In this document: positions 27,758-36,878 of the stretch, in pieces | Layout: each line of letters starts with the position of its first letter | Position numbering within the stretch: the first letter of the stretch is position 1 | DNA from: Candidatus Vogelbacteria bacterium RIFOXYD1_FULL_44_32 | GTDB lineage: Bacteria; Patescibacteriota; Minisyncoccia; Phycocordibacterales; XYD1-FULL-46-19 | Reading direction: 5' to 3' | DNA: 38,788 nt | Assembly: GCA_001823065.1 (NCBI GenBank) | Contig: MHTJ01000002.1 | Coordinates: forward strand, 117,532-156,319 | Position numbers and translations under genes: made by a program | Notes under the pieces: model-generated | Told to the model about the DNA's origin: nothing | The model's database searches: none | What the model saw: only the letters and a program-made list of their open reading frames with translations

Positions 27758-27830
27758 GCCCTGTTAGCTCAGTTGGTAGAGCAGCTCCCTTTTAAGGAGA
27801 TGGTCGCAGGTTCGACTCCTGCACGGGGCA
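27758..27830 (+). tRNA. tRNA-Lys (anticodon TTT)
   Basis: Cloverleaf: acceptor GCCCTGT/ACGGGGC, anticodon loop CTTTTAA, T-arm GCAGG-TTCGACT-CCTGC, discriminator A; CCA not encoded. Confidence 0.95.
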
Positions 27831-27892
27831 CAAAAAGGCACTTTTTGTGCCCCGTGAGCGAGACAACTGCTTGTCTCGCGTCAGGAGTCGAA
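27811..27892. repeat. 27-bp perfect inverted repeat of the tRNA-Lys 3' end, interrupted in one arm by a 25-nt hairpin
   Basis: Left arm 27811-27837; right arm 27841-27856 plus 27882-27892, split by AGCGAGACAACTGCTTGTCTCGCGT (27857-27881). Confidence 0.93.
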
Positions 27893-27931
27893 AGGACTTT
27901 CAATGTTTGTGAGCGAAGAGCAAACAAACCT

Positions 27932-27962
27932 GAAAGTCACCCGCGACCGTAGGTCGAGACTC
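27932..27962 (+). repeat. 31-bp direct repeat, copy 1 (GAAAGTCACCCGCGACCGTAGGTCGAGACTC)
   Basis: Exact match to 28142-28172; contains hairpin CGACC-gta-GGTCG. Confidence 0.95.
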
Positions 27963-28028
27963 ACTTATTGTTACTGTAAAAATATCTTGTCTCCCGTGCA
28001 GGAGTCGAACGCCGGAGCGCACGAAGTC

Positions 28029-28060
28029 GGAGGTCAGCAGAGCTGGAGGTCAGCAGAGCT
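28029..28060 (+). repeat. Tandem duplication of a 16-mer (GGAGGTCAGCAGAGCT x2)
   Basis: 28029-28044 and 28045-28060 identical. Confidence 0.95.
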
Positions 28061-28141
28061 CCGGTGCGAGGCGGTGCCTAGACCGAGACTTGGCGACGGC
28101 CCAGGATCGAGTCGAGGGAGACTCCTGCAAAAGTATCAGTC

Positions 28142-28172
28142 GAAAGTCACCCGCGACCGTAGGTCGAGACTC
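28142..28172 (+). repeat. 31-bp direct repeat, copy 2
   Basis: Identical to 27932-27962. Confidence 0.95.
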
Positions 28173-28261
28173 CTGCACCACTTCAAATCTTGCCATTTCC
28201 CAATTTAGGCATAGAATCGGTGATAGAAAAAACATCCGCATAGCGGAGGAGGATTGTAAAA

Positions 28262-28561
28262 ATGGGAACAGTAACAACAGGTGTAAATCCTCAGTTATTA
28301 CCGAGAGTCAAAGATTTGCCGAAAAGAGACAGAGCCCTTCGTTTTGGGGACAGTCTTGTCTTTCATTCCGAAACCCATCGGGTCTTGGTGGTGCGTCGGG
28401 GGCCTGATGGGCCGGTGGTTGTCCACTCGGCCGACTTCGACGGCCTTACCCATTTTGGGTTCCTTCAGTATGTCGAACAGCAGGTATATCTGTTTGGGCT
28501 TAAATACCAGAAGTCCAGCCTGGTTTTTGGCCCGACAGATATTGCTTATGATGTTTACTAG
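28262..28561 (+). CDS. Small orphan protein
   Basis: 99 aa, MGTVTTGVNPQLLPRVKDLPKRDRALRFGDSLVFHSETHRVLVVRRGPDGP...; SD aggaggatt, promoter-like TTGCCA-N16-TAGAAT upstream, GC-rich hairpin downstream. Confidence 0.65.
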   Translation: MGTVTTGVNPQLLPRVKDLPKRDRALRFGDSLVFHSETHRVLVVRRGPDGPVVVHSADFDGLTHFGFLQYVEQQVYLFGLKYQKSSLVFGPTDIAYDVY

Positions 28562-36445: not shown

Positions 36446-36806
36446 TTCCACTGTTTGATTTCCTACCTGCCGGTAGGTCGGGTGAAGTGAGACAAACAGT
36501 TCTTACCGGCAGGGATCTTTTCCTACGGGAACAGTACAGGCTTCACATCTCATTTCGCTGAATACAGCTTATTACGATAAGTTCAGCCTTTTCGATTCCT
36601 GACGCGAGCAAAGCAGTTTGCTCGCTCCGGGGGCACACTCCGCTCTGCTTCGTGTGCCCCCGGCAGGACGCTTAGCTATCTCACCCTTTGGAAACCCTCG
36701 GTTTTCCAACGAGCTTCGCTCTGCCTTCCTCCACGAGAAAACTACAGTTTTCCCGACCCCTTTCGAGTTCGATTCCTGCCGGGTAGACACACTCATTGCA
36801 TTCGTG
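36446..36806. repeat. Nested palindrome array on the 3' side of tRNA-Arg
   Basis: Contains CCTACC-tgcc-GGTAGG (36462-36477), TTCGATTCCTG+25-nt hairpin+CCGGGGGCACAC...GTGTGCCCCCGG-CAGGA (36591-36668), TTGGAAACC-type and GAAAAC-tgta-GTTTTC hairpins, GTTCGATTCCTGCCGGG (36767-36783). Confidence 0.88.
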
Positions 36807-36878
36807 TGCCCCCGGCAGGAATCGAACCTGCATCACAAGCTCCGCAAGCTTGCATTCTATCCGTTGAACTACGGGAGC
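36807..36878 (-). tRNA. tRNA-Arg (anticodon GCG)
   Basis: Cloverleaf: acceptor GCTCCCG/CGGGGGC, anticodon arm CAAGC-TTGCGGA-GCTTG, T-arm GCAGG-TTCGATT-CCTGC. Confidence 0.93.

Follow-up and report, generated by a model that had tools for sequence, protein, structure and literature searches.

What is a long, interrupted palindrome doing at the end of a tRNA gene, and is it peculiar to this gene or one copy of something more general? In the 38,788-nt stretch of the Candidatus Vogelbacteria bacterium RIFOXYD1_FULL_44_32 genome analysed here (the window), tRNA-Lys(TTT) occupies positions 27758-27831 of the plus strand (ARAGORN; Rfam tRNA, 69.4 bits). Its last 20 nt together with 7 downstream nt (CAAAAAG) form the first arm of an inverted repeat, TTCGACTCCTGCACGGGGCACAAAAAG (27811-27837, +), which a 3-nt GCA loop (27838-27840) separates from its reverse complement, split in two by an insert. 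The first part of the second arm, CTTTTTGTGCCCCGTG (27841-27856, +), is the reverse complement of the flank and the acceptor 3' strand; the insert AGCGAGACAACTGCTTGTCTCGCGT (27857-27881, +) consists of an A, a 9-bp stem closed by the loop CTGC, and a trailing GT; and CAGGAGTCGAA (27882-27892, +), the reverse-complemented 3' half of the T-arm through T54, completes the arm. All letters were checked, and the 27-bp arms, split second arm and hairpin insert described in the sequence-only reading are exact, letter for letter. Folded as RNA, the palindrome is far more stable than shuffled sequences (-72.4 versus -46.1 kcal/mol, z -7.1), and RNA made from it is predicted to compete with the tRNA fold. 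Below, S denotes the target repeat (here, as copy 1, the 3' end of tRNA-Lys(TTT) from T-loop position 54 to 74) and S' its inverted copy.

The palindrome is one copy of a widespread and apparently undescribed family of tiny tRNA-end insertion elements. In a survey of the stretches around the 38 tRNAs of the window's genome (G000, 705 kb), reverse-complement matches of at least 10 nt to the gene's own last 22 nt turned up in 400 nt of downstream sequence for 12 tRNAs, whereas upstream regions of equal length gave none. When matches of at least 12 nt are demanded, 7 of 38 tRNAs match their own downstream sequence, compared with 0 of 1406 swapped tRNAs. Inverted or direct copies of the own 3' end satisfy the 10-nt criterion downstream of 17 of the 38 tRNAs; leaving out three borderline cases and adding tRNA-Glu-TTC, whose diverged copy was counted through its CTGC hairpin, about 15 of 38 tRNA genes carry elements.

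The general order of parts is S, a hairpin that is often terminator-like, S', a module, and S again, with S' being the reverse complement of tRNA positions 74 to 54 and the second S copy starting from T-loop position 57 and often including CCA; elements mostly measure 120-200 nt from the tRNA end to copy 2. Two classes of left part are distinguished: i) the main class, in which A-9bp-CTGC-9bp-GT interrupts S' near positions 64/66, a layout that the tRNA-Lys copy shares with about 50 further elements, and ii) a second class with an unbroken S'. Each left part is combinable with modules of type A/A' (carrying a GTA triloop hairpin), B/B2 (NNC-G[GC]A-NNN-ATG...GA-GNN-GGGTCG...GTGACC) or C. The CTGC hairpin was found beside a reverse-complement T-arm in 151 occurrences, with the preceding A in 147 and the trailing GT in 137 of them. 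Looser search patterns for the modules were either too specific or returned mostly noise.

At least 119 stretches of bacterial genomes contain the pattern AGCRAGNNAACTGCTTNNCTYGCGT, for which our own estimate of the chance expectation is about half a match in 264 Gb. The matches listed come mostly from Patescibacteria and Elusimicrobia, and single cases listed belong to Verrucomicrobia, Parachlamydiales, Campylobacterales and Burkholderiales MAGs. The CTGC hairpin occurs in 27 of 61 genomes of the window's order versus 3 of 146 others sampled from the wider phylum. Among 126 hairpin occurrences inspected, 94 follow a detected tRNA of the same strand at a distance of up to 350 nt, and many of the remaining ones visibly adjoin truncated or undetected tRNAs or tmRNA; one family element (L091:1-190) follows a tmRNA gene at its 3' end. 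Rfam 15 at the gathering score reported only tRNA, and its permissive mode added a sub-threshold tmRNA and nothing credible over the element. The literature searched, which was largely open-access, contains no account of this element family. Searches of viral contigs, plasmids and phages gave no matches, and a phage, plasmid or viral origin was rejected on these sequence sets.

This recurrence bears directly on the simplest explanation, an ordinary long intrinsic terminator or an assembly artefact, which is scarcely credible: a terminator-like hairpin does belong to many copies, but the conserved modules recur in independent assemblies, and an exact S' is found for the own tRNA only. The sequence-only reading had already set the palindrome apart from ordinary terminators and stressed its precise internal hairpin, and it was right on both counts: S', the CTGC hairpin, a module and copy 2 recur as a set, and the hairpin is a recurrent part of the element. 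It had also proposed to look for the arrangement at tRNA genes of related genomes, where it is indeed present; an assembly artefact is ruled out by its recurrence in independent genomes. What that reading overlooked is that the palindrome belongs to an inserted element of a large modular family.

That the elements are insertions between target repeats follows from the empty and filled sites found at the same tRNA genes of G000 and its genus sister (G001). In syntenic positions, G001 has elements at tRNA-Cys-GCA, Thr-GGT and Val-TAC where G000 has empty sites, the reverse holds for tRNA-Ala-GGC and Ile-TAT, and the elements at His, Thr-TGT, Tyr, Arg-GCG and Gln-CTG are common to both genomes. 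At tRNA-Cys, the flanking sequence picks up directly after the second tRNA-end copy. The empty Ala-GGC gene encodes CCA, and in the filled gene copy 1 is without CCA and copy 2 carries it. Behind Val-TAC of G001 stand two tandem elements, with the terminator duplicated along with the tRNA end. Both marks of a tRNA-integrating element are present, namely an insertion enclosed by directly repeated tRNA 3' ends and an empty site in relatives, and the evidence for mobility consists of presence and absence between genomes. The existence of the family and its behavior as inserted elements are well supported.

It is very unlikely that these sequences are host-functional tRNA 3' elements, kept by selection for processing, termination or dosage control. 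Their position directly behind tRNAs and the good conservation of some orthologues between G000 and G001 (94% for His, 91% for Thr-TGT) would suit such a role, but fewer than half of the tRNAs carry elements, the set differs in the sister species, tandem and nested copies occur, and copies are often damaged, as exemplified by copy 2 of tRNA-Lys and the truncated element of tRNA-Lys CTT.

The tRNA-Lys locus itself contains such a nested arrangement. The sequence-only reading had confined the feature to 27811-27892; this interval stands, but the feature runs to about 28180, and both a second element (27987-28129) and the copy at tRNA-Arg had been missed. Following the split S', module A (27893-27957, +) forms a long stem, GGACTTTC...GAAAGTC, with a variable apical hairpin, for which covariation is seen in the same module elsewhere, and ends in the terminal hairpin CGACC-GTA-GGTCG (GTA triloop 27949-27951, +). 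A GACTC remnant (27958-27962, +) represents the second direct tRNA 3'-end copy of this first element and is followed by unrelated sequence. The second, nested element has an S' without the CTGC hairpin (27987-28010, +; 24 nt, 92% complementary to 27810-27833), a B2-type module, GCCGGAGCGC..GCGAGGCGGTGCCTAGACC..GAGTCGAGGGA (28011-28119, +), that is also found behind other tRNAs, and a closing direct tRNA 3'-end copy, GACTCCTGCA (28120-28129, +). Farther downstream, the tail of module A is repeated (28142-28167, +) as part of an exact 31-nt duplicate of 27932-27962 reaching 28172, and the last direct tRNA 3'-end copy, GACTCCTGCACCA, with CCA, lies at 28168-28180 (+). The 31-nt duplicate is consistent with insertion of the second element into the first. 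Two ORFs callable by gene finders (27903-28208 and 28090-28407) overlie the elements and are spurious.

The second tRNA of the window, tRNA-Arg(GCG) (36806-36878, -), is followed by two tandem elements. The first comprises a 17-nt S' (36767-36783, -) and a module C, GGGTCGG..CGTGGAGGAAGG..GGTGAGAT (36669-36766, -), that has an orthologue in the sister genome, and the second direct tRNA-Arg 3'-end copy (36654-36668, -) also serves as the start of the next element. In the latter, the CTGC hairpin AGCGAGCAAACTGCTTTGCTCGCGT (36602-36626, -) sits at the equivalent place within the element's own inverted copy, flanked by S' at 36627-36636 and 36591-36601, and precedes a module A' (36518-36590, -) and a partial third direct tRNA-Arg 3'-end copy, GATCCCTGCCGG (36506-36517, -).

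Across the family, S' agrees with its own tRNA and not with other tRNAs, and it also fits targets that are not tRNAs (the second element at L068; L172; L176; and the Campylobacterales loci L071 and L189). In these Campylobacterales the hairpin lies directly 3' of protein genes that appear lpxA-like and radA-like by inspection (L189:4900-5330 and L071:2860-2900), and their common target GAGCAAAGG suggests a separate target lineage. The junction C^RA is common to the targets, as computed for tRNAs and seen by inspection for non-tRNA targets. Since the agreement between S' and the local target extends to non-tRNA sites, S' was probably copied from the target at insertion. The tRNA-Tyr gene of G001 also points to S' being set at that moment, since position 57 has changed in the tRNA and the old base is retained in both S' and copy 2. 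On the strength of these sequence comparisons, we infer that insertion fixes the sequence of S', through copying or correction on the target, and that S' drifts later.

An S' that agrees with local sequence could also arise without any dedicated mobility, by template switching or snap-back synthesis during replication at tRNA-terminator palindromes, which would generate the S-S'-S series in place. Template switching yields perfect inverted copies, and fixes and maintains stems with few G-T pairs (PMC8794818); the terminator duplicated along with the tRNA-Val end in G001 would suit it as well. We nevertheless regard this origin as quite unlikely, as it leaves unexplained both the fixed positions relative to tRNA numbering and the constancy of the CTGC hairpin and of modules A, B and C, which Patescibacteria, Elusimicrobia and other phyla share.

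Whether the element acts as DNA or as RNA can be addressed through its helices and loops. In the CTGC stem, 17 of about 1359 pairs are non-Watson-Crick, and at positions left free in the search pattern 337 of 344 pairs are Watson-Crick, 4 are G-T and none A-C. The modules covary (83 double-change cells versus 25 in shuffled alignments, and 101 versus 34 in alignment A2 of module A). G-T pairs make up about 1% or less in the elements, compared with 3.6% in tRNA acceptor stems and 7.1% in terminators. With counts that ignore the shared descent of the elements and are therefore phylogenetically non-independent, element loops include 59 GNA triloops (1.35 in shuffled sequences) and only 4 GNRA loops, the 377 control terminators have 3 and 26, respectively, and the mini-hairpin GCGNAGC occurs 57 times (6.8 shuffled) versus 5 times (4.05 shuffled) for its reverse complement, i.e. 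it is enriched on the tRNA-sense strand only. In DNA, d(GCGAAGC) is known for its extraordinary stability. Mini-hairpin DNA of the GCGNAGC kind has been employed for robust stability (PMC4686876). Whole elements are predicted to adopt one closed DNA fold (-45 kcal/mol, z -10.8), held together by pairing between S' and the downstream S, with the CTGC hairpin looped out and the module forming the cap. Rare wobble pairs do not prove selection for DNA structure, because template switching can also keep stems perfect (PMC8794818). Taken together, the covarying helices, the rarity of G-T pairs and the DNA-type GNA triloops on the tRNA-sense strand favor folded single-stranded DNA over RNA, and action as single-stranded DNA appears to be the better-supported molecular reading. 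The DNA-structure reading of the palindrome offered from sequence alone is in this respect to be taken seriously.

The RNA alternative would be a structured, ribozyme-like or regulatory RNA co-transcribed with the tRNA, with S' base-paired, in cis or in trans, to the 3' end of the tRNA; in one variant, S' would serve as an internal guide over C56/R57, for example in a splicing-like reaction or insertion by reverse splicing. Conserved internal loops (G[GC]A opposite GA), the covarying P1/P2, an invariant G-T position in module B, the sense orientation of the elements relative to the tRNA and the predicted competition with the tRNA fold would all suit an RNA. It is rendered unlikely by the GNA triloops found in place of GNRA tetraloops, the scarcity of G-T pairs, the intrinsic-terminator-like hairpin that many elements have between the tRNA and S', the lack of an Rfam match, and the absence of reverse transcriptase from G000 and G001.

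The interpretation that we consider somewhat probable on balance is a small, non-autonomous insertion element, of which the palindrome forms the left part and which inserts as folded single-stranded DNA at tRNA and tmRNA 3' ends. The tRNA-sense strand would act as single-stranded DNA; pairing of S' with the downstream S would rebuild the tRNA-end duplex, leaving the CTGC hairpin looped out and the module as a structured cap; a recombinase or nuclease acting in trans would join the folded strand at C56/R57 of the T-loop; and S' would be written from the target on insertion, through copying, or through correction within the S/S' hairpin, and then drift. With its 3' end restored by the element, the tRNA would remain functional. 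This explanation leaves unaccounted for in detail the 11-nt target-derived stretch between two constant parts. More tentatively, these may be gene-less single-stranded DNA mobile elements that fold on an inverted copy of the target and rewrite this copy for each new target, so that a self-reprogrammed recognition arm would operate across phyla.

Small non-autonomous structured insertion elements at tRNA ends are already known as a general kind, and several established systems share individual features with the present family. Tyrosine-recombinase elements such as phage P4-like islands use the T-arm or 3' end of a tRNA gene as their integration site and likewise show a direct tRNA 3'-end repeat, a T-loop crossover and a restored tRNA, whereas the family described here is about 150 nt long and gene-less, is found at many different tRNAs at once and has an inverted target copy split by a hairpin. 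In the attP site of CTX-phi and in other Xer-exploiting elements, folded single-stranded DNA serves as the substrate of a host Xer recombinase. The likeness lies in the folded single-stranded DNA, here predicted, and in the presence of PF00589 in nearly all carriers, but the target is a tRNA and not dif, and no phage is involved. IS200/IS605, PATE and REP/RAYT elements rely on a Y1 transposase, and IS608 chooses its target by internal base pairing; these systems share single-stranded DNA hairpins and small non-autonomous palindromes with our family, which differs in having flanking target repeats and in lacking Y1 in several carriers. Rickettsia palindromic elements and MITE-like repeats are also short, structured and dispersed in reduced genomes, but the target-derived inverted arm, the fixed tRNA position and the several interchangeable modules set the present family apart. 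Integron attC sites recombine in a folded single-stranded form, with a preference for one strand (PMC6393395). The present elements have a predicted DNA fold and DNA-type loops, and their inverted arms would likewise pair and restore a duplex site with extrahelical features, but they target a tRNA end, not attI, and there is no cargo gene. The target-derived, hairpin-split inverted arm fits no known family tested.

Among the enzyme families examined, none was identified as the mobilising enzyme, and no autonomous, gene-carrying element was seen; the candidate at L088, considered as an autonomous version for its 4-kb copy distance, was dismissed, having turned out to be a different, partial tRNA. 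Inspection of ORF starts beside outlier elements gave no recombinase. The integron integrase TIGR02249 exceeded the cut-off in 0 of 41 genomes and the R box GTTRRRY was present at the recombination point of 0 of 67 element junctions, on which grounds identity with integron cassettes or attC sites was rejected. An IS110 bridge-RNA element and a retroelement or group II intron were rejected in the same way, as IS110 transposase (PF02371) and reverse transcriptase (PF00078), found in 4 and 18 of the 41 genomes, respectively, are both missing from G000 and G001. Y1 transposase (PF01797) is uncorrelated with the hairpin (14 of 19 carriers versus 13 of 22 non-carriers, Fisher p 0.51) and absent from the carriers G001, G004, G006, G018 and G025, and Y1 genes are flanked by other palindromes, so that Y1/RAYT was rejected as the mobiliser. 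The only site-specific recombinase family present in nearly all carriers is PF00589, usually as one gene (C2:90983-91492 in G000), presumably of Xer type; this distribution fits, and does not prove, Xer-exploiting elements.

If the interpretation as single-stranded DNA insertion elements is right, a high proportion of the tRNA genes in many tiny-genome bacteria bear an undescribed mobile element without a gene of its own, whose recognition arm adapts to its target. This would be relevant to the way in which elements select tRNA ends, to recombination of single-stranded DNA beyond integrons and to target-programmable insertion. The structured intergenic sequence behind tRNAs in these genomes would then be explained by the elements, and the fragments of tRNA tails, antisense pieces of tRNA and spurious ORFs found there would be their remains.

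Two other kinds of palindrome were observed in these searches. Patescibacterial Y1 (RAYT-like) genes of about 220-230 aa (L193-L201) have gene-specific flanking palindromes, e.g. GGACACCGAGTGTCC or AAAGGTTGAACCTTTG, and are possible REP-like systems. A second palindromic family, GCCCGCCCGCAACGCCTGAGCTTGCGATGGCGGGCGGG, is inserted in element loops at L233, L238, L239 and L242 in G001 and at L003 in G007, a genome of the window's family, and a related form of it occurs in the D-loop of tRNA-like genes.
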